From a virus, in the IMG/VR virus record IMGVR_UViG_3300010413_000039, positions 1-64,000 of that record: a stretch of 64,000 bases of DNA; one strand, written 5' to 3'. Within the stretch, counting starts at the first letter, position 1; each line of letters begins with the position of its first letter. The notes beneath the pieces were generated by a model that saw only the letters and a list, made by a program, of their open reading frames with translations, was not told the DNA's origin and did no database searches. The translations under genes were made by a program, and so were the position numbers. Shown here one piece after another: positions 3,249 through 62,621 of the stretch.

Positions 3249-3443
3249 AACCAACAAGAGGGGTCTACGCTGGAAACAGAGGAACTTCAAGACACTACTG
3301 CTTAAGGTAGGAGGGGAAACCCGTCTTACTACCGAGAGTGCAAGCCCAAGCAGACTTAGCAGGTGAGCAGTGCAATAATAGTCGGGTAGGGTGCAAAGAT
3401 AAATGTAGACATAAAACAGAATCTTGGGTACGCTCAGTTGGTT
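3249..3443 (+). ncRNA. rnpB: Compact RNase P RNA encoded inside the phage tRNA array
   Basis: The 195-base segment folds with the core of a bacterial RNase P RNA. P1 is AACCAAC (3249-3255) with GTTGGTT (3437-3443). P2 is GTCTAC (3263-3268) with GTAGAC (3405-3410). P3 is a minimal CTG-GAAA-CAG hairpin. The universal P4 is ACTTCAAGA (3284-3292) with TCTTGGGT (3422-3429), including the conserved bulged U at 3287. Matches to bacterial conserved regions include GAGGAA before P4, AGGGGAAACCCGTC, CCGAGAGTGCAAGCC, and ACAGAATCTTGGGTA at the 3' end, aligning with ACAGAACCCGGCTTA. At about half the usual length it keeps the catalytic core but much of the specificity domain is reduced. The likely role is 5' maturation of the surrounding tRNAs, with a host protein subunit. 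The assignment is from sequence and pairing by eye. Confidence 0.82.
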
Positions 3444-3522: not shown

Positions 3523-4626
3523 ATGTATAAACTTAAAAATCTTTTTATTCTATTATTGATGTTTATTACATTTACTACATCAAAGGGAGATGAGCATATG
3601 ACTTATCTTCCTTTTGTGCTTAATTATGTTTATTCATATCAGGCTAGTTGTGGTAATAAGTTATATGGATCATCAGTATACAGGGGTGTTATTGACAATG
3701 CTGATGACTGGTTGCATTTTGTTAACAACTTCTCAATAGGAACACCAGAAGTATCTTTGAAGATGGAATATACACAACCAGCCTATGGTGTTTGGGACTT
3801 TACAAAGAGCGACTATGTCGTAAACTCATTAGTTGAAGAGAATAAAAAAGTATTCGGTCACAATATATTCTGGCATATTTTCAACCCAAGCTGGTTTGAG
3901 GATGGTAATTTCTCAAAGAGCCAGATTGAACAAATGGCGTATGAAAGAATAGATAAATTAGTATCGCATTACGATAATACAATAACAGATTGGGATTTGG
4001 CTAATGAGTTAATAAATGAGTACGGTACATACAGGGATACGAAATGGAATTTCGGATATGATTATTTAGGTAAGGTTTTTGAATATGCCCACTCAAAATA
4101 TCCAGATAAGAATTTCTGGTACAATGACGTGTTTGGTCAGTATGGACTTCCTGATGGATGGAAGAACAGGATCAGGGAATTAGCACGTTCTGGAAATTTA
4201 TATGGGGTTGGTTTCCAACTGCACATAGATGGTTGGTATGATAAGACGGTTGCGTGGAATGAGATAATGGATTTTTCACGTGAATTAGGTTTTATGGGCG
4301 TGCGTGTAAGGATCAGTGAATTAGATGTTCAGGTAAGAACAGCCTGTCCAGATAACTGTTATGAAGAGACAGGTATATATCAAACAGACTTTGAAAACCA
4401 ATCAGTAATAATAAATGATGCCTATAACCTATGTGCTGATTTATGGAACTGCACAGACGTAACATGGTGGGGAATAAATGATGATAGGAATTGGAGATCG
4501 AGCGATAAGTATCCAGCTTATGGGTATGCAACAAATTGGTATGGTGATTATTATGTGCGGAATTTGGACAAACATCATATAATTTGTTATGAAGATATTG
4601 TCTATTTTGAGAGAGAGTGGAAATAG
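3523..4626 (+). CDS. Secreted glycoside hydrolase family 10 (xylanase-type)
   Basis: The 367-residue protein starts with a signal peptide (MYKLKNLFILLLMFITFTTS), then MTYLPFVLN, then a GH10 barrel. Diagnostic GH10 blocks are GHNIFWH (residues 112-118), the acid/base Glu162 in DLANE, GFQLHI (230-235) and the nucleophile Glu266 in RISELDV. Both catalytic glutamates are present, so hydrolysis of beta-1,4-xylan or a related host or biofilm glycan is expected outside the cell. The ATG lies 3 bases after tRNA-Ile with no Shine-Dalgarno. An internal ATG at 3598 with GGGAGATG upstream would give a version without signal peptide. The first start is preferred because of the signal peptide and its parallel in the gene at 26322. 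Confidence 0.85.
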   Translation: MYKLKNLFILLLMFITFTTSKGDEHMTYLPFVLNYVYSYQASCGNKLYGSSVYRGVIDNADDWLHFVNNFSIGTPEVSLKMEYTQPAYGVWDFTKSDYVVNSLVEENKKVFGHNIFWHIFNPSWFEDGNFSKSQIEQMAYERIDKLVSHYDNTITDWDLANELINEYGTYRDTKWNFGYDYLGKVFEYAHSKYPDKNFWYNDVFGQYGLPDGWKNRIRELARSGNLYGVGFQLHIDGWYDKTVAWNEIMDFSRELGFMGVRVRISELDVQVRTACPDNCYEETGIYQTDFENQSVIINDAYNLCADLWNCTDVTWWGINDDRNWRSSDKYPAYGYATNWYGDYYVRNLDKHHIICYEDIVYFEREWK

Positions 4627-4628
4627 TC

Positions 4629-4657
4629 TTGACAAATAATACTTAATGTGGTATAAT
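4629..4657 (+). promoter_or_regulatory. Strong vegetative promoter (TTGACA-N17-TATAAT)
   Basis: Perfect -35 TTGACA at 4629-4634 and -10 TATAAT at 4652-4657, 17 bases apart, with an extended -10 (TGTGG before TATAAT). The same TGTGGTATAAT context recurs in minus-strand promoters at 36.7 and 39.3 kb. The predicted start is near 4664, exactly at the base of the first hairpin of the downstream RNA. Confidence 0.9.
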
Positions 4658-4663
4658 TAATCA

Positions 4664-4737
4664 GTAACCAAGTGTGGTTACATGCGCCTCCTTTCGCTTA
4701 GAGACCTGCAGATACAAATGTGGGTCTCTTTTCTTTA
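4664..4737 (+). ncRNA. Candidate short RNA or attenuated leader with an exposed CCUCCUUU loop
   Basis: Between the promoter at 4629 and the terminator at 4700 there is room only for a transcript of about 74 bases. It would hold a 7-bp hairpin GTAACCA/TGGTTAC (4664-4681), a small GCG/CGC hairpin whose 8-base loop is CCTCCTTT (4687-4694), and the terminator hairpin. The loop equals the anti-Shine-Dalgarno tail of 16S rRNA, so the RNA could pair with ribosome binding sites. Alternatively it is the 5' leader of the late operon, with read-through controlled by an antiterminator. No open reading frame fits. Confidence 0.55.
4700..4737 (+). terminator. Rho-independent terminator
   Basis: AGAGACC (4700-4706) pairs with GGTCTCT (4723-4729), followed by TTTTCTTT. 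It ends the short transcript 70 bases before the portal gene, so it separates or attenuates the late operon. Confidence 0.8.
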
Positions 4738-4807: not shown

Positions 4808-6448
4808 GTGGCATCTATTCACAGAATCGGAAAAGCATATTCTGGTGGTCGGGTAGATGTAGTTCGTGGTGTTGATATTACATCTATAGGCGGTCAAATT
4901 TTCTATACAGATGATCTAACTCCTAGTATCCAAAAATTCAATGAATTTTGGGAACTAATGGATGTTATTAAAAAGCATGGGTACATAAGAGCATCCATGT
5001 CTGTTATTGGTCGTTCTGCTGTGGGAACTGATTGGTCTATAGTTAAGAAGGACGATTATATAGGAAGTGCACCACCACTACATAAGAAAAGACTACTGGA
5101 TTTTTATACAGGTGCGTATGCAAAAGATTGGAAAAATATCAGAGACTATCGTGATATCTCTTTCAATCTTATGATAGGCGTACAATATCTAAGGTATTTT
5201 GGTCAGGTTGCTTATCACGTTATAAGAGATAAAAGCACAAAAAGAGCACTTGGCATGTACCACCTACCTGGTCTTATTGTTCCAAACGTAGATTCAAATG
5301 GATATTTCAGATCGGGTCAGCCAGCATTTATTCAATACCCATCAAGTAATCCAAGGGATAGGGTAGAGTTTCAAAACCCTATGGATATTATCTTTATAAC
5401 TACACCATCTTGGGATGGAAACCCATTAGGCGGTACTGATATAGAGGCGTTGACTGAGTTTACAATACCACTTGATCTTTATCTGCAGACAGGCGCACGT
5501 GAGTATTTAAAGAACAGGGACAAACCAGAGGTAATTTATCAGGTTGCAAGCGATCTTAATGATGATGCTTTTGATACATTCAGGAGACAAATGGAGGCTG
5601 TGCAACGTGGTAGTGCTAACTTAGGAAGAAACCCTATTATTATGCAGGGTGATCTAAAAGTTCACGAAATGAGAGATTTACCGTCATCATTACCATACCA
5701 TGAGGGCAGGGATGATGCTATGGAAGAGGAGATGGCTATCTCTGGTGTTGGTGCTGTAAAACTAGGTATCACAAAAGGGTTATCACATTCTAATATGAGG
5801 GAATATAGGCGTGAATTTCATGAAACAACTATGCTACCTATGTTCAAGATATTAGAGGGTGGTTTTTATGAGCAGATAAATGTTAGGGAGTTTGGTATTC
5901 GTGGGTGGCAGTTCCAATTTGATCATCCTGATTTCCTAACTGCTGTAGAGCAGGCAACGGTTGATATGCGTTACTATGCTATGGGTGTTCTAAATCCAAA
6001 TGAAATGAGAAGAAACAGGGGTGATGATCCTAGAAGAGATGAGCTTGGTGATCTTTACTCAGACGAACTTCAAATATATATGGAAGATAGAAGAGAAGAT
6101 GAGAGGGAAGGTTTAAAACCAACTGGTGGAGAGCAGGGGTCGCCTCCTGAGGGGCGTGAGGATGAACCAGATTCCCCAAGTAATGTTGGAGAGCCATCAG
6201 ATTCTGATCAAGACCCTGTAAGGGGTGATCAACATGATGATGCTCAGAGAATAATCTCTGAATTACGTGCGTGGAAAAACTTTGTTCTAAGGAGAGATGG
6301 AAAACCAAGTAGAAAATTCAATCCAGAGAGCATACCAGATGACGTTGCTCAATTAATAGAAGAGCAGATAAGCACATCATCTACGTCTGAGAAAATAAAA
6401 AATATTTTTGATAATGCAGTTTATGCAGTAGGAGAATTCTATGGATAA
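4808..6448 (+). CDS. Portal protein
   Basis: The 546-residue protein matches tailed-phage portal organisation: an N-terminal arm, a stem/clip region with DPRRDELGD, and a long acidic proline-rich tail (about 430-470). Typical segments include IRASMSVIGRSAVGTDW, REYLKNRDKPEVIYQ and a crown-like helical C-terminus. It would form the dodecameric vertex ring through which DNA is packaged and the tail is attached. The GTG start is chosen because GGGAGG precedes it at a good distance. It is followed directly by head genes, but no terminase lies upstream, where most siphophages have it; that gene is presumably elsewhere in the genome. Confidence 0.82.
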   Translation: MASIHRIGKAYSGGRVDVVRGVDITSIGGQIFYTDDLTPSIQKFNEFWELMDVIKKHGYIRASMSVIGRSAVGTDWSIVKKDDYIGSAPPLHKKRLLDFYTGAYAKDWKNIRDYRDISFNLMIGVQYLRYFGQVAYHVIRDKSTKRALGMYHLPGLIVPNVDSNGYFRSGQPAFIQYPSSNPRDRVEFQNPMDIIFITTPSWDGNPLGGTDIEALTEFTIPLDLYLQTGAREYLKNRDKPEVIYQVASDLNDDAFDTFRRQMEAVQRGSANLGRNPIIMQGDLKVHEMRDLPSSLPYHEGRDDAMEEEMAISGVGAVKLGITKGLSHSNMREYRREFHETTMLPMFKILEGGFYEQINVREFGIRGWQFQFDHPDFLTAVEQATVDMRYYAMGVLNPNEMRRNRGDDPRRDELGDLYSDELQIYMEDRREDEREGLKPTGGEQGSPPEGREDEPDSPSNVGEPSDSDQDPVRGDQHDDAQRIISELRAWKNFVLRRDGKPSRKFNPESIPDDVAQLIEEQISTSSTSEKIKNIFDNAVYAVGEFYG

Positions 6449-8826: not shown

Positions 8827-10128
8827 ATGCCTAGCGAACTAAAGAAAGCACTGTTGACATCTGTATCTGGTTCAGCGTTGATTCCAGAAGATTTAGACAG
8901 CGTATTACATGATGAATTACTAAAGATTCAACCTCTGGTTGAAATCCTTGACGTGATTCAGGCAGAAGGTAAAACACACGAATACAACGTGCGTTCATCT
9001 CACCCACAGGGTTGGTTTGAGGGTGAAACTACTCCTATGGCACAGCAATCTGGTACGTACACACGTGCCACAGTTCAGTTGAAGATCGCCCGTATTTGGG
9101 GTGGTGTAACTGGATTTGGTCAGGCTGTTACTGAGGCTTACATTGACGCTCTTGAAACTGAAATCATGGGTGCTGTTGAAGGTATGGCTGATGTATTTGA
9201 ATACGGTCTGATGTGGGGCATTGCAGATGATATTGGATTTACGGGAGATGCTTATCAGTATTCTGGCGTAATTCCACGTCTTCTAAAATATGCACCAACT
9301 AACGTTGTTGATGCTGGTGGAAATAAAATTGAATTGTCTGATCTTGACTCTGCTATTGCCAAGACAACTTATCGTAGAACACGTCAAGACCCACGTCTGT
9401 GGCTGATGGGTGTTCAAATGAAACAGGTTGTTGATGGTCTGCAGACAAAAGTACAGATTCCATTAACACAGGTTGAACTAGCTGATGGTAAGATTGCTAT
9501 GTCAGCTTATGACTACATTCCGATTTGGGAAAGTGACTACATTGTGCCACAGAGCACAAGCACATCACCTACCCTTGCTGATGCTATTGCGGCTGGTGGT
9601 TCTCTTGCAGATGGTGATTATGATTACAAAATCTCATCTGTAACTATGTATGGTGAGCAGGTTGTTTCTGCCGCATCTGGTGGTGTAACTGCTGGATCAG
9701 GAAATAACAAAACTAACCTTACTTGGACTGCAGATACTAACGCTAAATCATATATGATTTGGAGACAGGATGGTGGTACAGGTGATTTTACATTACTTGA
9801 CATTATCCCTGCAAAAACATATGACAGTGCTGGTACAGTAAACGGTGTGGTAGAGGCTTATACTGATGATGGAACTAAAACCAAAATTGCAGTGAAACCT
9901 CTTGCGGCTGGCGAACAGAATATTCTGTTGCTTAACTACAATCCTGCACGTGGTTCTGCCTTTGTTGGTATGGTTGACGATATGGGACAGCAAACTGGTA
10001 AACTTTTGTCTTACGTGGAACTAGCACGTACAAAAGACAGCTATGATTTCTTCCTAAAGTCTTACCATGCACTACGTTTGGTACATCCAAATCTCGTAAG
10101 TCTGATCAGACACGCCAAATTAGCGTAA
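8827..10128 (+). CDS. Major capsid protein with inserted Ig/FN3-like domain
   Basis: The 433-residue protein follows the protease-scaffold gene and has strong, G/C-biased codon use typical of a highly expressed gene. It has HK97-fold character: a long N-terminal region, an E-loop-like segment (HPQGWFEGETTPMAQQSGT) and a P-domain. Residues about 240-370 form a separate module (DGDYDYKISSVTMYGEQVVS..., NLTWTADTNAKSYMIWRQDG) resembling a fibronectin/Ig-like surface domain inserted into the A-domain. RBS AAAGGGGGG lies upstream. The terminator at 10173 closes the transcript. Confidence 0.82.
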   Translation: MPSELKKALLTSVSGSALIPEDLDSVLHDELLKIQPLVEILDVIQAEGKTHEYNVRSSHPQGWFEGETTPMAQQSGTYTRATVQLKIARIWGGVTGFGQAVTEAYIDALETEIMGAVEGMADVFEYGLMWGIADDIGFTGDAYQYSGVIPRLLKYAPTNVVDAGGNKIELSDLDSAIAKTTYRRTRQDPRLWLMGVQMKQVVDGLQTKVQIPLTQVELADGKIAMSAYDYIPIWESDYIVPQSTSTSPTLADAIAAGGSLADGDYDYKISSVTMYGEQVVSAASGGVTAGSGNNKTNLTWTADTNAKSYMIWRQDGGTGDFTLLDIIPAKTYDSAGTVNGVVEAYTDDGTKTKIAVKPLAAGEQNILLLNYNPARGSAFVGMVDDMGQQTGKLLSYVELARTKDSYDFFLKSYHALRLVHPNLVSLIRHAKLA

Positions 10129-26849: not shown

Positions 26850-26880
26850 AGATAGGTTAATTTATTTTGTGGAGGGTGTT

Positions 26881-27258
26881 ATGACACGCAATAGAGTGAG
26901 CAAGAGACTTTCATCTGAGTATGAATTTGAGCTACCTGTAATTCAGGTACTGCAGGTATCGTGGTTATTGGCAAAAGAAAATAGAGGGTATAATCTTACA
27001 GAAGGTAGATATGTAAGTGCTATCATTGAAGAATTTGATCTAGAAAGTTATCCAGAAGTATCAGAAAAAGACCTTAAGAAGATGGTAAAGGCATCACTAT
27101 CTGGTTATGAACTCGAATTCCTGAAAGGTTTAATAGCAGAAGAGTTTGATAAGAGGTCTATACCGGCAGTAAGAGTAACGCCTGTTCTTAATCTGTACGA
27201 TCTTATTGAAAGTATGCTTTCAAAACCAGTTGATGAATCAACCATAGAGGAAGAGTAA
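26881..27258 (+). CDS. Protein of unknown function (125 aa)
   Basis: First gene after the embedded promoter; GTGGAGGG precedes the ATG. The protein is helical and charged (MTRNRVSKRLSSEYEFELPV, KMVKASLSGYELEFLKGLIAEEF). No family recognised. A regulator or tail accessory is possible, but nothing in the sequence decides. Confidence 0.6.
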   Translation: MTRNRVSKRLSSEYEFELPVIQVLQVSWLLAKENRGYNLTEGRYVSAIIEEFDLESYPEVSEKDLKKMVKASLSGYELEFLKGLIAEEFDKRSIPAVRVTPVLNLYDLIESMLSKPVDESTIEEE

Positions 27259-35004: not shown

Positions 35005-35364
35005 ATGACAGATGTTAGAAGATTACATGTAAATGAAGTAGGGACTATTTTAAAAATACTAGTTCAGGAACGTGATGAAAATGATGTTCTCCAAATCGTA
35101 GACTTAGCATCTATGGTTCAGGCACACATTGCTTTCGTGAAAGGGGAGGGGGGTGAAATAATCTCACGTGCTCTTTGGCACTATACTGATGGCACAGACG
35201 GTCTTCTTGTATATATTTTCCAAGAGGGTGATCTTGATACAGAGGGCAGGTGGGATTGGCAAATGTTTGTTCAGATGCCATCAGGAAAATGGTACTCACG
35301 TAAATCCTATATATACGTTGATGATGTTTTTGAAACATATGATGATGAGGATATACCTAATTAG
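35005..35364 (+). CDS. Baseplate-type N-terminal domain protein (119 aa)
   Basis: Reads like the N-terminal domain of BppU-type baseplate or fibre-adaptor proteins: LHVNEVGTILKILVQERDEN near the start and GRWDWQMFVQMPSGKWYSRK near the end. It lies just after the giant fibre and may anchor it. ATG preceded by GCGAGG. Confidence 0.5.
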   Translation: MTDVRRLHVNEVGTILKILVQERDENDVLQIVDLASMVQAHIAFVKGEGGEIISRALWHYTDGTDGLLVYIFQEGDLDTEGRWDWQMFVQMPSGKWYSRKSYIYVDDVFETYDDEDIPN

Positions 35365-46741: not shown

Positions 46742-46970
46742 AGCTTTCCTCCAGAAAATATTCCAGCTTGAAATGTTCAACAAATTCCTCTGCAGTAGGT
46801 GTGTAGTCATTTTCTATGGTGTAGATCATGTTATCTGTGATAACACATGCAGTAGGATCACCGTCATTTACCAGCCTGATAGCCTCTTTAGCAAATGGTA
46901 TAATGGAAAGAGGCTTTCCCCATTCATAAACCATGTAATTTTCTAACTGAATTTCCATATGCAAGTCCAT
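46734..46970 (-). CDS. Small protein of unknown function (78 aa)
   Basis: First gene after the type B promoter at 46996; GAAAGGAGTTATC precedes its ATG. Sequence MDLHMEIQLENYMVYEWGKP, alpha/beta. No family. Confidence 0.6.
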   Translation of the reverse strand: MDLHMEIQLENYMVYEWGKPLSIIPFAKEAIRLVNDGDPTACVITDNMIYTIENDYTPTAEEFVEHFKLEYFLEESYE

Positions 46971-46995
46971 GATAACTCCTTTCGTTTACTCTTTA

Positions 46996-47039
46996 ATTAT
47001 ACCATAGTCAGGCACAAATTAGATTAAGGTTTGATTAGT
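46996..47039 (-). promoter_or_regulatory. Type B promoter (two 11-bp-spaced boxes, TATAAT)
   Basis: Minus strand: ACTAATC (47039-47033), CTTAATC (47028-47022), TATAAT (47001-46996). Box 2 overlaps the -35 position and there is no TTGACA. Same geometry as seven other promoters. Serves the methyltransferase 2 operon. Confidence 0.75.
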
Positions 47040-47045
47040 GCTGTA

Positions 47046-47300
47046 TTAAGAACCTGCCATTAGAAGTTTGAGGGCATCATCATTATCATAGTTATATATC
47101 CACATTGCCATGCAGAATACTTGAAAAGCATACTCAAAGCTAGGAAAGTAATCTGATTCATGTACTATCCTGTTTGGTATAGGATCAGACAAATCCACTA
47201 TGAGATAGTACCAACCTCTCTCCCCAAACTCTGCAGATGGTGCATCGTTGAAATACAGTCGGTATTCAAAACCATTTAGAATATAAGTATCAACTAGCAT
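47046..47300 (-). CDS. Small protein of unknown function (84 aa)
   Basis: Overlaps the upstream gene by 11 bases; AGAGGTTACAATTCT before ATG. Sequence MLVDTYILNGFEYRLYFNDA ... suggests a beta-rich fold with a C-terminal helix. No family. Confidence 0.55.
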   Translation of the reverse strand: MLVDTYILNGFEYRLYFNDAPSAEFGERGWYYLIVDLSDPIPNRIVHESDYFPSFEYAFQVFCMAMWIYNYDNDDALKLLMAGS

Positions 47301-52672: not shown

Positions 52673-52716
52673 ATTATACCATAAACCAATCCCCCAAACA
52701 TTAATGTTAGCTTAGA
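52673..52716 (-). promoter_or_regulatory. Type B promoter
   Basis: Minus strand: TCTAAGC (52716-52710), ATTAATG (52705-52699), then GGGGGATTGG, TATAAT (52678-52673). Overlaps the end of the upstream gene. Confidence 0.75.
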
Positions 52717-53126
52717 GAGGGGTATACGTCCTCAAAGTAATCTACCCAACCTTCCATGATGTTTGCGCTCTTCTCCGCATATCCACTAACTACTGCACAG
52801 ATCAGGGTACGTACCATATGGTTGTCCTTAGACAGATATTCATCACACAACTGCTGGAATGCCTTCCGAGAAAATCTGCTGGTGCTCTTCACACCACAGT
52901 ATACCCCATCAGTGGGTACATACTCTCTAACCATGTCACTGTATGTCATTGGCTGGACTGACAGGTAGTACCCACGTTCTACGTCCTTACCTGTAAAGTA
53001 ATTATATCCCCCCAAATTATAATACATTTTCACTTCCATAGCGTTAACCTTTGGCAAACCATCTGCCTGCAGGATAATGCTATTCTCAAACTTATTATTG
53101 ATTTTCTTTATAATTTCGCCTATCAT
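52707..53126 (-). CDS. Protein of unknown function (139 aa)
   Basis: GAAAGGACACAGATACT precedes ATG. Sequence MIGEIIKKINNKFENSIILQ ... with CGVKSTSRFSRKAFQQLCDE. Alpha/beta, no known motif. Confidence 0.6.
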   Translation of the reverse strand: MIGEIIKKINNKFENSIILQADGLPKVNAMEVKMYYNLGGYNYFTGKDVERGYYLSVQPMTYSDMVREYVPTDGVYCGVKSTSRFSRKAFQQLCDEYLSKDNHMVRTLICAVVSGYAEKSANIMEGWVDYFEDVYPSLS

Positions 53127-53169
53127 AGTATCTGTGTCCTTTCCTCAGAATAAATCGCTAAAATGTGCC

Positions 53170-53769
53170 TTATTTTCTAATTTCAAAGGGCTTATCCCAC
53201 TTACCTACACCAGTGTGTAACCAGTAGTTTGTGCAGAAGTAATCTACCATAGGATCACTCTTATCCCACCTGTAATACAGTGCTATGGTATATACCAGTT
53301 CCATCAGTGCACGTCCTCTTGCAGTAAGACGATACTCATTCTTAGGGTAATAGTGATTGGTCTGCATATAATGATCGCTCTCATTCATGCAAACCTCATA
53401 CGGTGCAGACATCAGGTATACATTAATGCAGTCAGTCCCTGATCCTCTACCATCACGAGTCACTGAGAATTTAATGTCCTTTCCAAAGACGTATTTCAGG
53501 GTTGACCTGATCCATTTAACGATCTCATGTGCTGGCATTCCAGATACGGGTGTGCTGTGGATAACCTCTTCCCACCTGTCGTACTCTTCATCGAAATTAA
53601 CAGGATCGGATTCCCCGTCCTCATTAACTCTAATATGATGATAGTGCTCATATCTGAGCAGGGTATAGTTTGTTAACCTTACAGCATCATCATATCCCCC
53701 CTCAACGTCTACTTTGGTTTCCCCTAACTGATTATCATTTTCATCATACCACTTGATATTATATTTCAT
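53170..53769 (-). CDS. Protein of unknown function (199 aa)
   Basis: ATG 53769 follows TGGAGGCAGTC. One of the largest proteins of the right arm: an N-terminal beta domain (MKYNIKWYDENDNQLGETKV) and a middle with KFSVTRDGRGSGTDCINVYL, followed by a helical end. No family recognised. Confidence 0.6.
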   Translation of the reverse strand: MKYNIKWYDENDNQLGETKVDVEGGYDDAVRLTNYTLLRYEHYHHIRVNEDGESDPVNFDEEYDRWEEVIHSTPVSGMPAHEIVKWIRSTLKYVFGKDIKFSVTRDGRGSGTDCINVYLMSAPYEVCMNESDHYMQTNHYYPKNEYRLTARGRALMELVYTIALYYRWDKSDPMVDYFCTNYWLHTGVGKWDKPFEIRK

Positions 53770-53787
53770 GACTGCCTCCATACATAT

Positions 53788-53831
53788 ATTATATCACAAT
53801 AATGTCCCCCTAACATTAATGTGTGATTAGC
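53788..53831 (-). promoter_or_regulatory. Type B promoter
   Basis: Minus strand: GCTAATC (53831-53825), ATTAATG (53820-53814), TATAAT (53793-53788). GGGGGACATT lies between box 2 and the -10. Confidence 0.75.
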
Positions 53832-54075
53832 GCATCAACTCAAACTGAACAGTGATATTTCCACGAGTATCAAGATAAATTCCACTGAGCTTGCCGGTCA
53901 TTCGCTCACCAGCTACATCAAATGCATACGGACAGTCGCTGGCATATACCTTAAGGTTAAGGTAGCGGTTCTCTTCTGGTGCTGGTTCATTGACCTCAGT
54001 AGTATTAATCGCCAGAATGCTTTCCTTCCCTTTCTTCTCACTGTCAAATAAGACTTCCTCGATTATCAGTTTCAT
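53827..54075 (-). CDS. Small protein of unknown function (82 aa)
   Basis: ATGGAGGCACGCAG before ATG. Beta-rich, charged (MKLIIEEVLFDSEKKGKESI ... ). G/C-richer than its neighbours. No family. Confidence 0.6.
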   Translation of the reverse strand: MKLIIEEVLFDSEKKGKESILAINTTEVNEPAPEENRYLNLKVYASDCPYAFDVAGERMTGKLSGIYLDTRGNITVQFELMR

Positions 54076-54104
54076 CTGCGTGCCTCCATCTGTAAGATGT
54101 CTAC

Positions 54105-54165
54105 ATTATACTACGATCTGCAGGTTAAGCAAGAGTAAATTGATCACTCTCATGAAACATTAATG
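54105..54165 (-). promoter_or_regulatory. Type A promoter (boxes upstream of -35)
   Basis: Minus strand: CATTAAT (54165-54159), CATGAGA (54154-54148), -35 TTGCTT (54132-54127), 16 bases, TATAAT (54110-54105). Serves the 82-residue gene. Confidence 0.75.
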
Positions 54166-54167
54166 TT

Positions 54168-54183
54168 AGTACACATGTGTACT
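54168..54183. promoter_or_regulatory. 16-bp palindromic operator AGTACACATGTGTACT
   Basis: Identical to the site at 44828, placed 2 bases upstream of the first box of the type A promoter at 54105. Confidence 0.5.
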
Positions 54184-54478
54184 GGATAAATTGGATCAGC
54201 TTTATCGGATATATCCAGTCCGAAAAAGCTAACAAAGTAGACCAGGATTGTCGCATTAGTATGTGGATAAATCGGATCGGAGTAGTCCGAATTTATTCCA
54301 GGGGTGGATTATCATCTTCTTGGTCTCCTGGTCACACCACACAAGGGTCTGGTTATCATGCCACCTATACGGGCTGTTATGTGTGGTGGAGGACTACTGT
54401 CCCGTCCCCCACCATCTTTGGATTTCTCTCCGTTTACCTGATCCCGTTGCACTCTCCTTTTGTCTACTCCGTTCTTAT
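54184..54478 (-). ncRNA. Structured non-coding RNA, 'TAATCCACCC' family (about 295 nt)
   Basis: No coding frame fits on the minus strand, yet a strong promoter (54485) feeds exactly this segment, which ends before the next promoter. In minus orientation it contains GATGATAATCCACCC, then a hairpin with arms GGAATAAAT and ATTTATCC enclosing CGGAC/TCCG pairs, then GACAATCCTGGTC, and the 3' core TATCCGATAAAGCTGATCC. The same order is found near 58.7 kb, with compensating base changes in the hairpin. The 5' half has complementary GGTGG / CCACC segments. Confidence 0.6.
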
Positions 54479-54484
54479 GATACA

Positions 54485-54545
54485 ATTATACCAGATACCG
54501 GCAGACTGTCAAGGGTATCTGGTATGTTCTCATAAAACATTAATA
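54485..54545 (-). promoter_or_regulatory. Type A promoter with inverted repeat around the -35
   Basis: Minus strand: TATTAAT (54545-54539), TATGAGA (54534-54528), TTGACA (54512-54507), 16 bases, TATAAT (54490-54485). A perfect 12-bp inverted repeat, ATACCAGATACC (54488-54499) and GGTATCTGGTAT (54514-54525), flanks the -35, so a dimeric repressor could cover the promoter. Confidence 0.82.
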
Positions 54546-54884
54546 TAAGAATGATCTCTTTTCAACATGATCTATGCACAGATCGAGTGTATACCGTCTG
54601 ATCAGGTTATCATTAGAATCCCTGATCTCAGCACCAGTAACACCATCTTCTGTGTTCATTATAGTTTCAACTACCTTAAAGATCAGAGCAGGTGTAGCCA
54701 TATCACCACGAATGATAACGGTTTCCCCACTGGTAAAATAGATTGATGCTATCATCTGAATAGATGTTATGACTGGTTTATACCCACAGTCAAAGCAGTT
54801 CGTGTTCAGTGATCCCATCTGCCCACCACAGTGTGGACACTGTTCTGGCCAGCTTGTAATATTTCCATCTTTCCAGTTCGTCAT
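54540..54884 (-). CDS. Zinc-ribbon protein (114 aa)
   Basis: N-terminal CPHCGGQMGSLNTNCFDCGY is a clear zinc ribbon. Then a beta-rich domain (IASIYFTSGETVIIRGDMAT). Its ATG overlaps the stop of the basic protein upstream (ATGA). RBS AGAGAGGTAAGAA. Confidence 0.65.
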   Translation of the reverse strand: MTNWKDGNITSWPEQCPHCGGQMGSLNTNCFDCGYKPVITSIQMIASIYFTSGETVIIRGDMATPALIFKVVETIMNTEDGVTGAEIRDSNDNLIRRYTLDLCIDHVEKRSFLY

Positions 54885-55009
54885 TTCTTACCTCTCTTTA
54901 CCTGTTCCTGCTGGATAATGAATACAGATTTGCTGTCTACCTGCATACCACGCTTACGCTTGCGTTTCTGTTCTCGTTTCTCTGATTTATATTCTGATCG
55001 TGTTCTCAT
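54881..55009 (-). CDS. Very basic 42-residue protein
   Basis: Reads MRTRSEYKSEKREQKRKRKR, then GMQVDSKSVFIIQQEQVKRG and KK. Joined to both neighbours by ATGA overlaps, which makes it a credible coupled gene despite its size. Strong positive charge suggests RNA or DNA binding. Confidence 0.6.
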   Translation of the reverse strand: MRTRSEYKSEKREQKRKRKRGMQVDSKSVFIIQQEQVKRGKK

Positions 55010-55347
55010 GATACCTTTGCCTCAAACTCCAAGATATTTCTGGTGTCATAGGTGTTTCCAGTTGAGTGTATATCACTCTCAAAAGCTATCTTGCCTTCAC
55101 GATATCCCATGTGAATCTCAGTGATCCCGTCCAGATCAACGTTTCCAAAGATACCGTGTCTCATGATAACATTAAATGATGGTGGTTTGATCTCACGATG
55201 ACCATATACACTGTAGTTATCATAAGGATGCTGGCTGTGAAGAACATCTAAAGCCTCAGCCAGATTGTCAGCCTGAATCTCTTCAAGCGAAACATGGACT
55301 ATCTCAACCCCATCTGTGAAAGCTACAGCTAAAATGTATGTGTTCAT
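55006..55347 (-). CDS. Protein of unknown function (113 aa)
   Basis: AGGAGGCACACAT before ATG. Beta-rich N-terminus (MNTYILAVAFTDGVEIVHVS), later GYREGKIAFESDIHSTGNTY. First of a three-gene coupled operon from promoter 55377. No family. Confidence 0.6.
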   Translation of the reverse strand: MNTYILAVAFTDGVEIVHVSLEEIQADNLAEALDVLHSQHPYDNYSVYGHREIKPPSFNVIMRHGIFGNVDLDGITEIHMGYREGKIAFESDIHSTGNTYDTRNILEFEAKVS

Positions 55348-55376
55348 ATGTGTGCCTCCTGTATCGTTATATGTGT

Positions 55377-55437
55377 ATTATAACAGAAAAACCCCTGATG
55401 TCAAGAGCTATCAGGGGTTTCTCATGTTGCTCTAATG
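55377..55437 (-). promoter_or_regulatory. Type A promoter with inverted repeat around the -35
   Basis: Minus strand: CATTAGA (55437-55431), CATGAGA (55426-55420), TTGACA (55404-55399), 16 bases, TATAAT (55382-55377). AAACCCCTGA (55389-55398) and TCAGGGGTTT (55411-55420) form a 10-bp inverted repeat across the -35; it could also act as terminator for the RNA arriving from upstream. Confidence 0.82.
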
Positions 55438-55616
55438 TTAGCGGAGGCGGTCTAACACTAGACAATAGGGTCTTATGGTTTGCGTTCAGTCTCCCTAACT
55501 TACCATGAGCTAGATCATCAACAGCCTACATAAGACCCTGATCTGACGTGCGCCCACCAGCACACACTCTCCTATCGAGTGGATTTGTCGTCAACGTGCA
55601 CCCTATTGGTCAGTCC

Positions 55617-56006
55617 TAGCACTGCAGGGACTCGAACCCTGTCAGTCAGTGTGCACTCCCACAACACAGGATACCAGCCTGTGTTCACAGAGATTTTATG
55701 AGCATTCAGGGGAATGTGAGAGTTTATCTCGTCAGGTTACAAACAAGGGTGTGGTATACTCCGAGTCTATCTGACATATAGGGTAGGATTTCACTAAAAC
55801 AGGCTTACCACACTTCCCTGCAAATGTCCTCCAGCCTTCCATTCCCCTGATTGCCCATAATTCTAGTTCTAGGGTCTGACTCTCACACCTGTACATGGTG
55901 ATCGGTAGTAGTGTACTTACAAGTTGGGTCATGCCAACCTAGGATTTACACTTTATCTGCACTCTTCCTATCTAATGCGAGTCACCTACTTGAGTCATTC
56001 AGTGCT
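55617..56006 (-). ncRNA. tRNA-like (acceptor plus T-arm) closure of a 390-nt domain
   Basis: Minus strand: AGCACTG (56006-56000) pairs with CAGTGCT (55624-55618). The 3' half is preceded directly by a perfect T arm, CAGGG-TTCGAGT-CCCTG (55641-55625). This is the arrangement of a tRNA or tmRNA, but with about 350 bases between acceptor and T arm. An arm ACAGG-CTGGTAT-CCTGT lies shortly before the T arm. tmRNA signature bases (GATTCGAC after the acceptor, G-U third pair) are absent, so it is called tRNA-like only. Confidence 0.55.
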
Positions 56007-56196
56007 ATCTAGAAATCTCTATGCTGTCCTGCAGTACAGTATAGTGTGTTTGTGAGACAGGTTGTACTGACCTGTATGTATCTCAGAGGCGAGTCGGACA
56101 TTTCATTCTAATTAGTCCTTGAATTTCTTATGTGGCATCCCGCTTTTACACCATCCCTGCTGACAGCAGGTAAACTTTTGAACCGCAAACCTCGGC

Positions 56197-56317
56197 GGAC
56201 GGTGGTGGGATTCAAACCCACAACCTCCCATCTTTCCCTAGTGTTGATCAGACACTTTCCGAGGATGATCAATCCTCTACAGGATCATGAGTGCTCTACC
56301 AGTTGAGCTACACCGCC
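56197..56317 (-). ncRNA. tRNA-like domain with 55-nt insertion in place of the anticodon loop
   Basis: Minus strand: acceptor GGCGGTG (56317-56311) with CACCGTC (56204-56198); D arm GCTC-AACTGGTA-GAGC; anticodon-type stem CTCAT with ATGGG; variable AGGTT; T arm GTGGG-TTTGAAT-CCCAC. Everything is standard tRNA length except the anticodon loop, where 55 bases replace 7. The insert holds AGTGT-CTGATCA-ACACT, itself like an anticodon arm, and an ATCC/GGAT hairpin. It may be a decoded-out tRNA serving as an RNA end structure, or a tRNA with an unusual intron. Confidence 0.6.
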
Positions 56318-56394
56318 ATATTATTTGAGGTTCATTCCAGTGATCAAATCTGGATTGTAAGATTCATATTCAGTTGTTAAGGTTCGATGTTATA

Positions 56395-56454
56395 ATTATA
56401 CTACAATTTCTTTGTTTGTCAAGGGTATTTCGTGTTTCTAATCTTACATTAATA
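56395..56454 (-). promoter_or_regulatory. Type A promoter for the 950-nt RNA
   Basis: Minus strand: TATTAAT (56454-56448), GATTAGA (56443-56437), TTGACA (56422-56417), 16 bases, TATAAT (56400-56395). Confidence 0.82.
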
Positions 56455-56913
56455 TCGTGGGACTTTCACCCACATGGTGGGACTTTCCCACCAGTATTAT
56501 TCTTTACCTGTCCATTGGATTTAGTCCTCCAGTGAGACACATATTTTATCTGGATGGTCTCACGCTGTCCAGTGATTATCTTCTACACTCTTGGGGGCAT
56601 TCTACGTCACAGCCATTGTAGACATCGGTCTTTGGCTATCGGCTGTCTGACCTGCCCCCAAGAGGGCAGAAAATCTCAGGCTATTGTGATCTCTCGGACA
56701 CTTATCACCTTACTTAGCTGGTCGGTCGTTTCCACTACCAGTACCTGAAATATTCTGTTGTTAAGGTTCTGACAGAACCCCTCCAGTCTTAGTGCCTAGT
56801 GTAGGTCTAGTGGGTCTTCGAGTCTCGCTCTACTTGCCTCACCGCTCACTACCTGTTATGGTAGGTGCACATTGGCTGGACTGCCTACTCAGAATGTTAA
56901 GGTTCTGTCTTAT
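56455..56913 (-). ncRNA. Second structured RNA (about 460 nt)
   Basis: From the type A promoter at 56920 to the boxes of the next promoter there is no gene. The minus strand begins AGAACCTTAACA, as does the 950-nt RNA; a third copy lies at 56769. A perfect 10-bp pairing CTTGGGGGCA/TGCCCCCAAG joins 56662-56653 with 56599-56590 as inverted repeats. The 3' end has two tandem GAAA-loop hairpins (56492-56476 and 56473-56457), both with GTGGG/CCCAC-type stems. GGTTCTGTCAGAACC forms another hairpin. Confidence 0.6.
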
Positions 56914-56919
56914 GTCACT

Positions 56920-56979
56920 ATTATAGCATGTTTCAGATATTTGTCAAGGGTTTTAAGGTGTTCTCATGAAACATTAATG
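56920..56979 (-). promoter_or_regulatory. Type A promoter for the 460-nt RNA (three boxes)
   Basis: Minus strand: CATTAAT (56979-56973), CATGAGA (56968-56962), CTTAAAA (56957-56951), TTGACA (56947-56942), 16 bases, TATAAT (56925-56920). The three boxes are exactly 11 bp apart. Confidence 0.85.
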
Positions 56980-57237
56980 TTAGGGTGTTACCCCTATTAC
57001 CCCTATTAAACACTGCTCACCACCTTGGCATGGAAAGCCAAACACAGGTTCATTGCCAACAACGTGGTTTCTGATGTCGTTTAAGTATACCTTATAAGTA
57101 CAGACTGTATCACCTATCTCACCACCAGTGCAGGTGTCGGTCAACGGATTCGACCCTGCATCCACAGGTTGTACAGCCACCAACAACATTACCACACCTA
57201 CCACCAGCACTACCAGAATAAGCACAACGGTTTTCAT
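56980..57237 (-). CDS. Small secreted or membrane-anchored protein (85 aa)
   Basis: AAAAGGAGTCAATC before ATG. Signal-type N-terminus (MKTVVLILVVLVVGVVMLLV AVQPVDA cleavage site), then a short Cys-rich exported domain (CTGGEIGDTVCTYKV ... FPCQGGEQCLIG). It may modify the host surface, for example in superinfection exclusion; unproven. Confidence 0.6.
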   Translation of the reverse strand: MKTVVLILVVLVVGVVMLLVAVQPVDAGSNPLTDTCTGGEIGDTVCTYKVYLNDIRNHVVGNEPVFGFPCQGGEQCLIGVIGVTP

Positions 57238-57479
57238 GATTGACTCCTTTTAATCTTCTCTATTAGAGTATTAACTGTTATACATACCGACATGAATTGA
57301 CCTACTTCTACAGGATACTCATAATAAATAGTATGCTCTTCACTTTCATATGGTTCTTTATATGAGAATGTTAATCCAGTAGAGTCAAACTCCATACTAA
57401 CGTAGTAGCCACTATCGTTAATATACATTAACTTTTCTGTTAGCACAGACACACATTGACTAGTAGTTGCCATCCACAT
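57234..57479 (-). CDS. Small protein of unknown function (81 aa)
   Basis: GGAGGTTTCTA before ATG 57479. Beta-rich (YINDSGYYVSMEFDSTGLTF). Ends with an ATGA overlap onto the next gene. No family. Confidence 0.6.
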   Translation of the reverse strand: MWMATTSQCVSVLTEKLMYINDSGYYVSMEFDSTGLTFSYKEPYESEEHTIYYEYPVEVGQFMSVCITVNTLIEKIKRSQS

Positions 57480-57533
57480 TAGAAACCTCCATAAAATAGG
57501 ATCAATAAGGTGGGATTTCTCCCACCTGTAATA

Positions 57534-57950
57534 TTAGATGTATCGTTGCAGTTTTATTTCGCCACTGTCAACCATCTGTGAGATTTTCTGAGCAGTCTCA
57601 ACAGCCTGTCGGTTTCTGTCGTCAGCGTATTGCTGTTCTGCCAGTCCACAGATAATCCCCAAGCAGAAGTTGACAGCCAGCCCCTGCAGTGTCCTGTGAG
57701 TACCTCGCAACCTTAACCCGATCTGTACACCCTCTCCGAAATTCTTTCCTCCGCTGTTCAACCAGTCATCAAACAGACGGGTAAACCGATTGGTTGTGAG
57801 TGCCCTCTTTAGGCTAAAGGTGCTGATTTCTACATACTCGCCGGTCTCGTATCCAGTCTCAACTTCCCACTTTGAGTCCGCTACCCACTCTCTGAGGTCT
57901 ACCCGTTCCTTCTCGAGTCTCTCTTTAATCCTGTCTACATAGATGTTCAT
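57534..57950 (-). CDS. Helical protein of unknown function (138 aa)
   Basis: ACGGAGGCACAAACGA before ATG. Strongly helical and basic (MNIYVDRIKERLEKERVDLR; FTRLFDDWLNSGGKNFGEGV). G/C-rich codons compared with its neighbours suggest a different origin. First gene after promoter 57982. Confidence 0.6.
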   Translation of the reverse strand: MNIYVDRIKERLEKERVDLREWVADSKWEVETGYETGEYVEISTFSLKRALTTNRFTRLFDDWLNSGGKNFGEGVQIGLRLRGTHRTLQGLAVNFCLGIICGLAEQQYADDRNRQAVETAQKISQMVDSGEIKLQRYI

Positions 57951-57981
57951 TCGTTTGTGCCTCCGTTTCTAAGATGTCCTC

Positions 57982-58042
57982 ATTATATCAGGTTATAGTA
58001 TCCTGTCAATAGTATTTTAGGTATTCTCATAATTCTTTAATG
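57982..58042 (-). promoter_or_regulatory. Type A promoter
   Basis: Minus strand: CATTAAA (58042-58036), TATGAGA (58031-58025), CTAAAAT-like third box, TTGACA (58009-58004), 16 bases, TATAAT (57987-57982). Confidence 0.82.
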
Positions 58043-58212
58043 TGGGTGGTGGGCTACAAATTCCCGTCTCTTTTATCACTCACGTGGAGAGGCTTACAAC
58101 CCTCTCAGGACTTTACACCGACACCTGCCACCTAGTAGTGTTCTCAGGTACACTGCCACCTGTACCGCAGGGTCTTGACGTAGGGTCTCCGATATGTCCC
58201 TACACCACCCAC
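58042..58212 (-). ncRNA. Structured 3' region closed by a 10-bp stem
   Basis: GTGGGTGGTG on the minus strand (58212-58203) pairs perfectly with CACCACCCAC (58051-58042), closing 150 bases that contain no gene and several GC-rich complementary pieces (GGAGAGG-type, GGTGGCAG repeated twice). It lies after the gene at 58220 and may be its 3' untranslated structure or a separate small RNA. Confidence 0.5.
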
Positions 58213-58219
58213 ACTCCAG

Positions 58220-58480
58220 CTATACAACACCTACAAATACAAACCCTCTTCCTACACAGTCTACTGCAGTCTCATGCACTGGTCTCTCAGTCTCGTGGTG
58301 TCCCTCGCACCACACCCCAAAGCATGAATGCTCTACAGTATGAGAACCGTCACCGTTCATTCTGATTCTCACAGTGTCGGGTGTGTCTCCGCACACCTCC
58401 CACTTGGCAACCCTACCAGACCACGCTCGATTCTCTTCATCATTCATTGCTCGCATGTTCCTAGTCCAGTTGTGCCTCAT
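58220..58480 (-). CDS. Small protein of unknown function (86 aa)
   Basis: CGGAGGCGAAA before ATG supports the start. MRHNWTRNMRAMNDEENRAW ... a basic, Trp/His-rich protein with a Cys pair. Composition differs from the AT-rich neighbours. No family. Confidence 0.55.
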   Translation of the reverse strand: MRHNWTRNMRAMNDEENRAWSGRVAKWEVCGDTPDTVRIRMNGDGSHTVEHSCFGVWCEGHHETERPVHETAVDCVGRGFVFVGVV

Positions 58481-58509
58481 TTTCGCCTCCGTGTTCCTGT
58501 TATGTCTAC

Positions 58510-58569
58510 ATTATAACACATTATAGAATGTTGTCAAGTGTTTTAAGCCTCTCTAATCAAACATTAATC
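58510..58569 (-). promoter_or_regulatory. Type A promoter (three boxes)
   Basis: Minus strand: GATTAAT (58569-58563), GATTAGA (58558-58552), CTTAAAA (58547-58541), TTGACA (58537-58532), 16 bases, TATAAT (58515-58510). Boxes exactly 11 bp apart. Confidence 0.85.
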
Positions 58570-58573
58570 TTTC

Positions 58574-58589
58574 AGTACACATGTATACT
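58574..58589. promoter_or_regulatory. Palindromic operator AGTACACATGTATACT
   Basis: One base from perfect symmetry; lies 4 bases upstream of the first box of the promoter at 58510, the same arrangement as at 54168. Confidence 0.45.
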
Positions 58590-58797
58590 TGACAAATCAG
58601 ACCAGCTTTATCCGATAAAGATTGTCCACAAATAGGATCGAAATAGTCCAGGATTGTGCCGGCGTGCATGTGGACAAACTGGATAGGATTAGTCCGAATA
58701 GTTTGCAGGGGTGGATTACCTTCCTTGCATTGCCTGTGGTCGATTTGCCTGGGATGCTGGTTTCTTCTTCACCAGTCTGGAAGTGTGTCTGTCTTAT
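58590..58797 (-). ncRNA. Structured non-coding RNA, 'TAATCCACCC' family (about 208 nt)
   Basis: Driven by the promoter at 58804; no gene fits. Minus strand order: GGTAATCCACCCC, hairpin GCAAACT/AGTTTGTCC (where the 54-kb copy has GAATAAAT/ATTTATCC, so both arms changed together), CACAATCCTGG, then TATCGGATAAAGCTGGTC and GATTTGTC. It ends just before the palindrome and boxes of the next promoter, as at 54 kb. Confidence 0.6.
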
Positions 58798-58803
58798 GAT
58801 CTA

Positions 58804-58863
58804 AGTATACCAGAAAATCCCCTCTTGTCAAGGGGATTCTGGCTTTCTCATGAAACATTAATC
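58804..58863 (-). promoter_or_regulatory. Type A promoter with inverted repeat around the -35
   Basis: Minus strand: GATTAAT (58863-58857), CATGAGA (58852-58846), TTGACA (58831-58826), 16 bases, TATACT (58809-58804). CCAGAAAATCCCC (58810-58822) and GGGGATTCTGG (58832-58842) form an imperfect inverted repeat across the -35. Confidence 0.8.
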
Positions 58864-59039
58864 TATGCGAGTCTCGTGCCTCGGATGTATAGAGGAAAGG
58901 ATTCTTCATCATCTTCAAGAATCACCTCGCCTGAGAAATCATAATCATCAGAGAAATCATCCTCTAGGCACTGGTCACACAGCCCATCATCTTCCTCGTT
59001 TATTAATGTTCCACATCCCACGCAAAGATATCTTTCCAT
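58863..59039 (-). CDS. Small acidic zinc-ribbon protein (58 aa)
   Basis: AAGGAGTCTAAT before ATG 59039. MERYLCVGCGTLINEEDDGL, then CDQC, gives a compact zinc ribbon; the rest is very acidic (DDFSDDYDFSGEV, LEDDEESF). The layout resembles small phage proteins that bind host RNA polymerase or nucleases, but nothing identifies a target. Confidence 0.6.
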   Translation of the reverse strand: MERYLCVGCGTLINEEDDGLCDQCLEDDFSDDYDFSGEVILEDDEESFPLYIRGTRLA

Positions 59040-59693: not shown

Positions 59694-59909
59694 TTAAGAT
59701 ACTTTGGTTATAATACCCTCCGCTACCTCTACAGTAGCATACCATTTGCGGTTGCGGTAGGGGTCAGGGCCGACAACCGTGAATTTACCAGTTCCAGATT
59801 CAGGGATTTCATTCCCAAACAGGGATGTTTCCACAAACCTACCTGCTGAAATTCCCTGCCCTACCTGTTCCTTGAGTTCCTTTTTAGTCTTGCGATATGA
59901 TCCTACCAT
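59694..59909 (-). CDS. Small basic protein (71 aa)
   Basis: CGGAGGTAGTGAA before ATG. MVGSYRKTKKELKEQVGQGI ... FTVVGPDPYRNRKWYATVEV, basic alpha/beta. Single-gene transcript between promoter 59944 and terminator 59648. No family. Confidence 0.6.
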   Translation of the reverse strand: MVGSYRKTKKELKEQVGQGISAGRFVETSLFGNEIPESGTGKFTVVGPDPYRNRKWYATVEVAEGIITKVS

Positions 59910-60760: not shown

Positions 60761-60822
60761 ATAATACTACGAATTTTAATTCTTGCATAGGGTAAATTCG
60801 ATACTCTAATAATCCTTTAATG
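60761..60822 (-). promoter_or_regulatory. Type A promoter (weak -35)
   Basis: Minus strand: CATTAAA (60822-60816), TATTAGA (60811-60805), TCGAATT (60801-60795), -35 ATGCAA (60788-60783), 16 bases, -10 TATTAT (60766-60761). A poor core with good boxes suggests strong dependence on the box-binding protein. Confidence 0.65.
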
Positions 60823-60951
60823 TTGTCCTTTAGTACCTAAAATTAACCATAGTCCAAACATAACACCTAATACTAATAGTACAGTGCTTAAACTCACGTC
60901 ATATGATTGTATATTTATATAATCCGTTAGTATTGTCATTATTATGTCCAT
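60817..60951 (-). CDS. Very small membrane protein (44 aa)
   Basis: ATG 60951 follows AAAGGATATATA. MDIIMTILTDYINIQSYDVS, then a membrane helix (VLLVLGVMFGLWLILG) and TKGQH. Function unknown. Confidence 0.5.
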   Translation of the reverse strand: MDIIMTILTDYINIQSYDVSLSTVLLVLGVMFGLWLILGTKGQH

Positions 60952-61697: not shown

Positions 61698-62621
61698 CTA
61701 GTGTAAGTTTAGCACAAATGGTATATGATTAATTATATAATAAATATCATCCTCTACACTATCGCAAGCTGTAGGGAGGTGATTATAATCACCCTCATTA
61801 ATTCGGACAAATGCTGTCGGAATTGTCGGGATATTATTTTCATCGTAGATTAACTCACTGTCAAATATACTTCCGTGACTATATGTTAGATGAAAATTTT
61901 CACCCCACAGGTGCATGTAATCACGAACATATTGAATCACCTTAGTATACCCGTAAAAAAGTACATCCTTTAAATACATGCTAGCCAAAAGCCATGCGAT
62001 AAAATAGGATGTACTTGCCATCCCCCCAGCGGAATGAATTCGGACTATTTTCATCCGATTTACCTTGATTGTCTTAATAAGGGTCATGGCTTGCGCTAGG
62101 ATATCATCCTTTAAGGATAGTATAATTTTCGTGTTATACATTCTTGCATGCCATGTGTCGGAGTATTGATTCTCTTCACCAGCACTATAGCAGTACCCGA
62201 TTTTATCATCCCCACTACCAGTTAAGGTATTTTTTATTAATATTGTCCCCGTCCTATTTGGACTATTCTTGTCCATTTTAGCGTAGGCCTTGCATAGCCA
62301 TGCGGCCGGACAAGTGTATCCACTGCTTAAGTTTATACTTGCCACTTGATACAGGTATTTAATTATAAAATTAATGTCTATATCACCTGATTTTAATTCC
62401 CTTGCCATTTTAACGATTTTGTGATTGTGAGATATTTTTAGGGAATTAACCCTATTTAACCCGTCATTATTTTCTATCTCATTAATCAATTCAGCATAAA
62501 GAACATTTAAACCACTACGGGTTAAATACTCTTTATTTTTATTTATATCTTTAGCGATTCTACTCTTTAATACGAGTATATCACTAGTTAAATTTTTATA
62601 AATAACATTTGATTTAGACAT
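61698..62621 (-). CDS. GP88-like phage protein (307 aa)
   Basis: TGGAGGTGTTATA before ATG. It has the GP88 family pattern known from mycobacteriophages and many other phages: TCPAAWLCKAYA (about 103-114), CYSAGEENQYSDTWHARMYN, VRIHSAGGMASTSYFIAWLL, VLFYGYTKVIQYV. Several conserved Cys, His and Asp suggest a metal-containing enzyme, but the function of the family is not established. It is read from the region with CTTAAC direct repeats and is the largest early protein of the right end. Confidence 0.75.
   Translation of the reverse strand: MSKSNVIYKNLTSDILVLKSRIAKDINKNKEYLTRSGLNVLYAELINEIENNDGLNRVNSLKISHNHKIVKMARELKSGDIDINFIIKYLYQVASINLSSGYTCPAAWLCKAYAKMDKNSPNRTGTILIKNTLTGSGDDKIGYCYSAGEENQYSDTWHARMYNTKIILSLKDDILAQAMTLIKTIKVNRMKIVRIHSAGGMASTSYFIAWLLASMYLKDVLFYGYTKVIQYVRDYMHLWGENFHLTYSHGSIFDSELIYDENNIPTIPTAFVRINEGDYNHLPTACDSVEDDIYYIINHIPFVLNLH

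Follow-up and report, generated by a model that had tools for sequence, protein, structure and literature searches.

A promoter-driven RNA of about 1 kb, here called RNA-A, is predicted on the minus strand of the phage record G000, a 68,390-base virus record of IMG/VR of which a 64,000-nt part forms the window. The reading preferred here is that RNA-A is a real untranslated phage RNA with tRNA mimicry embedded in it, resembling the large RNAs GOLLD and ROOL in context and unrelated to them in sequence. Judged from the sequence, this reading is given about one chance in two. The features on which it draws are listed in Table 1.

Table 1. Features of RNA-A and of the preceding segment RNA-B, in window positions.
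Feature	Position	Strand	Basis
RNA-A, putative untranslated transcript of about 970-1000 nt	55385..56388	-	Promoter to terminator without a credible ORF
Sigma-70 promoter of RNA-A, TTGACA-N16-TATAAT	56395..56422	-	12/12 consensus
boxA-like leader GAACCTTAACAACTGAA	56369..56385	-	Rare motif, position after the promoter
Helix flanking TLS1, GAACCTCAAA (56333-56324) with TTTGCGGTTC (56189-56180)	56180..56333	-	Pair probabilities 0.7-0.9
TLS1, tRNA-like domain	56198..56317	-	Rfam tRNA 45.6 bits; strict descriptor
TLS1 acceptor, 7 bp	56317-56311/56204-56198	-	
TLS1 D-arm, GCTC-AACTGGTA-GAGC	56308-56293	-	
TLS1 anticodon stem, CTCAT/ATGGG, opening into a three-way junction	56291-56287/56231-56227	-	
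Hairpin AGTGT-CUGAUCA-ACACT within the enlarged anticodon arm	56240..56256	-	CUGAYC hairpin also in tRNA-likes of G002 (two) and G005
TLS1 T-arm, GTGGG-TTTGAAT-CCCAC	56221-56205	-	
TLS2: T-arm 55641-55625, acceptor strand 55624-55618, possible partner 56006-56000	55618..56006	-	T-arm far above chance
11-bp 3' long-range hairpin, AGGGTCTTATG/CATAAGACCCT	55467..55539	-	Pair probability about 1; p about 0.02
Second 11-bp hairpin, TCTAGTGTTAG/CTAACATTAGA	55431..55462	-	Pair probability 0.74-1
Intrinsic terminator, AAACCCCTGA...TCAGGGGTTTTT	55385..55420	-	Sequence, stem, stem energy
RNA-B, noncoding segment preceding RNA-A, promoter 56947-56920	56425..56930	-	Two boxA-like motifs

The predicted transcription unit of RNA-A and its boxA-like leader

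RNA-A lies in the longest gene-free stretch of the G000 record (55348-56979), within the arm right of about 36 kb in which the genes are on the minus strand and which also carries the replication genes. At least nine near-identical minus-strand promoters are found in this right arm, alike also just past the -10 hexamer, and the terminator of RNA-A is overlapped by the next promoter (55404-55377). The preliminary description had seen a promoter reading into some 950 bases devoid of a credible gene, and both points were borne out. The promoter with all 12 consensus positions and the terminator at 55420-55385 delimit about 970 nt on the minus strand, in which the longest ORF is 66 aa, a length equalled in 71% of shuffled sequences. 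No Shine-Dalgarno sequence was found before any RNA-A ORF of at least 30 aa, clear ones being present for most flanking genes, and the ORFs tested had no match in Pfam. A coding reading was rejected on the missing Shine-Dalgarno sequence, the missing Pfam match and the ordinary ORF length. That the RNA-A transcript exists is, on the sequence, probable, and more so than any role for it. The preliminary description took RNA-A to be probably abundant early in infection, a proposal that rests on the strong promoter and the boxA-like leader in the arm with the replication genes.

The boxA-like motif starts about 10 nt past the -10 hexamer of the RNA-A promoter and agrees at 8 of 12 positions with the E. 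coli rrn boxA, from which that of the host may differ. The pattern AAC[CT]TTAACA occurs four times in the 68 kb, three of them within RNA-A and RNA-B; no clear terminator was found for RNA-B before RNA-A. A boxA-like sequence right after the promoter is also present in RNA-B and in the relative G014, and in a looser form in the relative G002. The layout in G014 is a promoter at 4831, the boxA-like sequence, a tRNA-like element (4894-4987) and about 590 nt free of genes up to the next tRNA gene, this similar promoter-boxA-tRNA-like-noncoding arrangement spanning 4831-5575. The promoter of G002 at 59711 is followed by the loose boxA-like sequence and then by up to about 960 nt, inside which there is a 69-aa ORF with a possible Shine-Dalgarno sequence, and G011 holds a looser boxA-like copy inside a gene-free stretch of about 670 nt. 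When IMG/VR was searched with the boxA pattern, one relevant new match was obtained, before a 29-tRNA array in L084/L087; the remaining matches look like chance. Long noncoding RNAs, among them 16S rRNA and CRISPR arrays, are known to be preceded by boxA, which raises their full-length transcription (PMC7862264).

Some other elements were observed around RNA-A. Inverted-repeat promoters are present on the minus strand at 55420-55377, 58834-58804 and 54512-54485, with the TTGACA at or near the hairpin loop and the 3' arm in the spacer, and at the first two of these a terminator-like stem and its T-run reach into the next promoter. A 22-nt repeat, TCTCATGAAACATTAATGTTAG, with the palindromic core AACATTAATGTT, has eight copies within 52689-58867, most of them located just upstream of promoters, and is a possible operator. 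Finally, a noncoding element occurs in four related minus-strand copies (54485-54130, 58718-58551, 59635-59568 and 51151-51063, with 73-82% to the first), of which the first is promoter-driven; with the gathering cut-off, nothing in Rfam matched the element.

tRNA-like domains and folding of RNA-A

The Rfam tRNA model matched TLS1 at 56317-56197 on the minus strand with 45.6 bits (cut-off 29, E = 1.6e-6). The acceptor, D, anticodon and T stems are intact and the variable region reads AGGTT, and yet TLS1 is without a 7-nt anticodon loop bearing a usable anticodon. In the place of this loop, 55 nt separate the two strands of the anticodon stem and fold into a three-way junction with two hairpins. 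A strict descriptor of such an expanded tRNA-like had no match in 1.15 Mb of shuffled sequence. The helix continuing past the acceptor stem should hinder RNase P, and because of this helix and the missing anticodon loop TLS1 is read as a mimic that stays embedded in RNA-A. RNase P is known to be slowed when leader and trailer pair and so lengthen the acceptor stem (PMC9433436), which makes an embedded, uncut mimic plausible.

Five further tRNA-likes with an enlarged anticodon arm were identified across four relatives: two in G002 (58888-59023 and 60796-60931), one each in G005 (26978-27095) and G017 (47022-47139), and the element of G014 at 4894-4987, in which the anticodon loop is smaller (26 nt). 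A hairpin with CUGAYC in the loop lies inside the arm in four of the six tRNA-likes, those of G000 and G005 and both of G002. Hairpins of this kind with 5 bp and a 7-nt loop number nine in all sequence examined, three of them within these short arms, and the descriptor joining the CUGAYC hairpin and the tRNA-like had no match in five shuffles; some discount applies to the motif, since it was noticed post hoc. The same pattern gave five matches in IMG/VR, four of which were tandem ordinary tRNAs and the fifth (L091) a real expanded tRNA-like.

L091 (IMG/VR 3300037461_000726) is a phage without known kinship to the G000 family. Its region 4300-4700 (minus strand) displays tandem tRNA-likes with inserts of 60-80 nt in the anticodon region, and the inserts share motifs such as GGYGTAG...TACTTCAY.

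The tRNA-likes of G005 and G017 are found inside longer helices. One of these reads ACCCGTG/CACGGGT in G017 and ACCAGTG/CACTGGT in G005, with one compensating change; the second, CATCAG/CTGATG versus CATCTG/CAGATG, has two. The expanded-anticodon tRNA-like is here enclosed by a conserved noncoding RNA (G005 26880-27001, G017 46925-47045, 75% identity), the hairpins of which show compensating changes. A hammerhead was considered in G005 and G017 and rejected by eye, its core not fitting.

TLS1 might instead be a tRNA gene whose anticodon loop is interrupted by a short intron, in which case RNA-A would mainly be a tRNA precursor with its trailer. The four intact stems, the fact that each of the six inserts starts within the anticodon arm and the common motifs in the inserts of the tandem L091 tRNA-likes speak for an intron. 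However, stems of 5-8 bp run on into the insert, and about 600-700 nt of RNA-A would be left unexplained. The inserts are also below the size of group I introns, and no bacterial splicing system is known for them. An intron is considered very unlikely.

Strict T-arms (stem of 5, loop TTYRANY) were detected exactly twice on the RNA-A strand, at 56221-56205 and 55641-55625. Shuffling gave an expectation of 0.0015, two T-arms were seen in none of 2000 shuffles, and elsewhere in the 68 kb, tRNA genes left aside, there were only two, which were weaker. The second T-arm, that of TLS2, is followed by CAGTGCT, for which a perfect 7-bp partner, AGCACTG (56006-56000), is located about 360 nt upstream (p = 0.022). 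This closure would give a tmRNA-like domain of about 390 nt, at a cost of 2.7 kcal/mol when enforced; the alternative is a local 5-bp stem, and the unconstrained fold favours neither. A search with the exact TLS2 pattern returned two stray matches. Two tRNA-like closures had been proposed for this RNA; that of TLS1 stands, while of TLS2 only the T-arm is certain and its closure may be either the 360-nt partner or the 5-bp stem.

A strongly diverged tmRNA is an extremely improbable reading of the TLS2 domain (56006-55618). The 7-bp acceptor partner, a possible P2 helix and the sequence GACTCAAGTAGG, which comes after AGCACTG and resembles the D-loop of the relatives' tmRNA, would suit such an origin, as would the presence of tmRNA in most island-bearing relatives. 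Against it, tmRNA (RF00023) was found in RNA-A neither by Rfam nor by ARAGORN, neither a G3-U70 pair nor a tag frame is present, and a P2 helix at the usual spacing is no more than chance would give. A canonical tmRNA was rejected. RNA-A and tmRNA are alike in that other RNA replaces the anticodon arm of the tRNA-like part, and tmRNA is encoded by phages of the G000 family, but TLS1 retains a D-stem, is contiguous and lacks the tag, the alanine G3-U70 pair and a model match. The T-arm minihelix of TLS2 is also reminiscent of mascRNA and viral tRNA-like structures, with a weak mascRNA match of 22.2 bits (E = 0.26) that is below the cut-off of 42.5, and which in this case comes from a bacterial virus and another context.

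The long 3' hairpin of the preliminary description (11 bp, 55539-55467, p about 0.02) was confirmed and is accompanied by the second one of 11 bp at 55462-55431. The dense complementary segments, taken as a whole, were not confirmed. The MFE z-score of RNA-A (-2.1) is in the same range as those of coding controls (-0.7, -4.9 and -2.6), so that MFE alone is no evidence for RNA-A, and its 150-nt sub-windows are mostly unremarkable, only those starting at 55800 and 55575 standing out.

Relatives, genome setting and known RNA classes

The G000 genome carries tailed-phage genes for the portal, major capsid and tape measure proteins, an Erf-like annealing protein and a helicase. Its DNA polymerase is similar to many phage polymerases, and its capsid protein resembles, among cultured phages, only those of Leptospira phages (28%). 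Searching IMG/VR with the major capsid protein revealed a family of uncultivated phages related to G000 (25 loci), none of which covered the early region of a close relative, and no such relative was found in the genome contigs collection. When the gene orders of G000 and G002 are compared, RNA-A falls into the interval occupied in G002 by the tRNA island. The seven tRNAs of G000 are all at the far left, the nearest about 52 kb from RNA-A. Both a tmRNA and many tRNAs were observed in the IMG/VR relatives G002, G004, G005, G008, G013, G014, G016 and G017 (26-39 tRNAs in several); the tmRNA of G017 was recognised by its similarity to that of G004.

A homologue of RNA-A was found neither by blastn in phages or related viral records nor by way of the neighbour proteins (55006-55347 and 61698-62621) in IMG/VR or by way of the DNA polymerase. 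RNA-A is not similar in sequence to the noncoding parts of the relatives, and as these do not align with it, homology to the relatives' RNAs is claimed no further than the tRNA-like. The noncoding RNAs of G002 and G014 had no match in cultured phages. An apparent 1.5-kb gap in G020 was dropped, its printed sequence reading as an open reading frame.

It is distinctly unlikely that RNA-A is the remnant of a decaying tRNA island, in which a pseudo-tRNA amid junk DNA would be transcribed without function. The seven tRNAs of G000 as against 26-39 in the full relatives would agree with decay, and so would the unremarkable global folding energy and the lack of a conserved homologue. A remnant would, however, not be expected to keep the TLS1 stems intact or to have a dedicated consensus promoter, a boxA-like motif and a terminator, nor is it in keeping with the recurrence of enlarged anticodon arms, with a shared hairpin, in five elements of the relatives.

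GOLLD (RF02032) and ROOL (RF03087) are striking large phage RNAs. With E values allowed up to 5, neither covariance model matched within window positions 54500-57500, nor did either match G000 or 14 other phage records with E allowed up to 1, in a search without a positive control. Rfam scans of the window and the relatives in gathering and E-value modes, with the same library, which did detect tRNAs in the window, found none of the large RNAs, GOLLD and ROOL included. RNA-A had been proposed as a member or new relative of these classes. Membership finds no support in the models, and the looser idea of a relative in kind would fit the context, namely a phage, the relatives' tRNA-island site and the size. 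GOLLD is likewise phage-encoded, about 0.8-1 kb long and associated with tRNA islands and may include tRNA sequence, but its model has no match in G000 or relatives and the tRNA-like of RNA-A is not a decoding tRNA. ROOL is a large phage RNA often near tRNA islands, again differing in the absence of a model match.

A closer kinship, in which RNA-A would be a structural RNA of the GOLLD/ROOL type that might form an RNA-only cage, with the tRNA-like as a passenger, is unlikely. It would fit the phage, the tRNA-island setting of the relatives and the length of about 1 kb, and a passenger has a parallel in the tRNAs present in the linker of some GOLLD RNAs (PMC12286853), but it is opposed by the lack of a model match and the ordinary global fold energy. 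Unusual anticodon loops in tRNA-rich phages have been reported before (PMC10264068); those belong to decoding tRNAs with point changes, in contrast to the enlarged arms within a longer RNA described here.

RNase P RNA and a possible role of the proposed embedded mimic

An RNase P RNA was identified on the plus strand of G000 at window 3253-3439, between tRNA-Asn and tRNA-Ile. Its best Rfam match was RNaseP_arch with 47.9 bits (E = 1.2e-12 in a small search), which does not reach the curated cut-off of 84. Homologous DNA is present in G005 (35179-35338), G002 (62383-62540) and G014 (9798-9904), and the class A RNase P model scored 66.2 bits (E = 1.8e-21) at G014 9578-9919 and matched in G005 with E = 1.9e-13. 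By these matches, an RNase P RNA is encoded by G000 and at least three relatives. That of G000 had no blastn match in cultured phages, and no paper on a phage RNase P RNA of this kind was found in the literature searched.

For the preferred reading of RNA-A as an untranslated RNA with an embedded mimic, the course of events may be depicted as follows: The host RNA polymerase would start at the strong RNA-A promoter, and boxA would recruit the Nus antitermination complex, giving a full-length untranslated RNA that may persist as a folded particle. TLS1 would be a mimic rather than a tRNA, and through its tRNA elbow it might serve as a dock or decoy for factors that handle tRNA (RNase P, RNase Z, CCA enzyme, EF-Tu or host defences that attack tRNA).

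More tentatively, and with the odds rather against it, RNA-A may represent an undescribed class of phage RNA. Such a class would consist of tRNA mimics with a three-way-junction anticodon arm and a conserved CUGAYC hairpin, in long boxA-led untranslated RNAs, from tRNA-rich phages that also encode RNase P RNA and tmRNA, and its members would engage or mislead the host tRNA machinery. A large RNA with a built-in tRNA mimic that lacks a usable anticodon loop would be a second setting beside GOLLD and ROOL, and it offers a testable handle in binding to RNase P, EF-Tu or tRNA-cutting defences. With its tRNAs, tmRNA and RNase P RNA, the G000 family may enter the host equipped with its own system for tRNA maturation.
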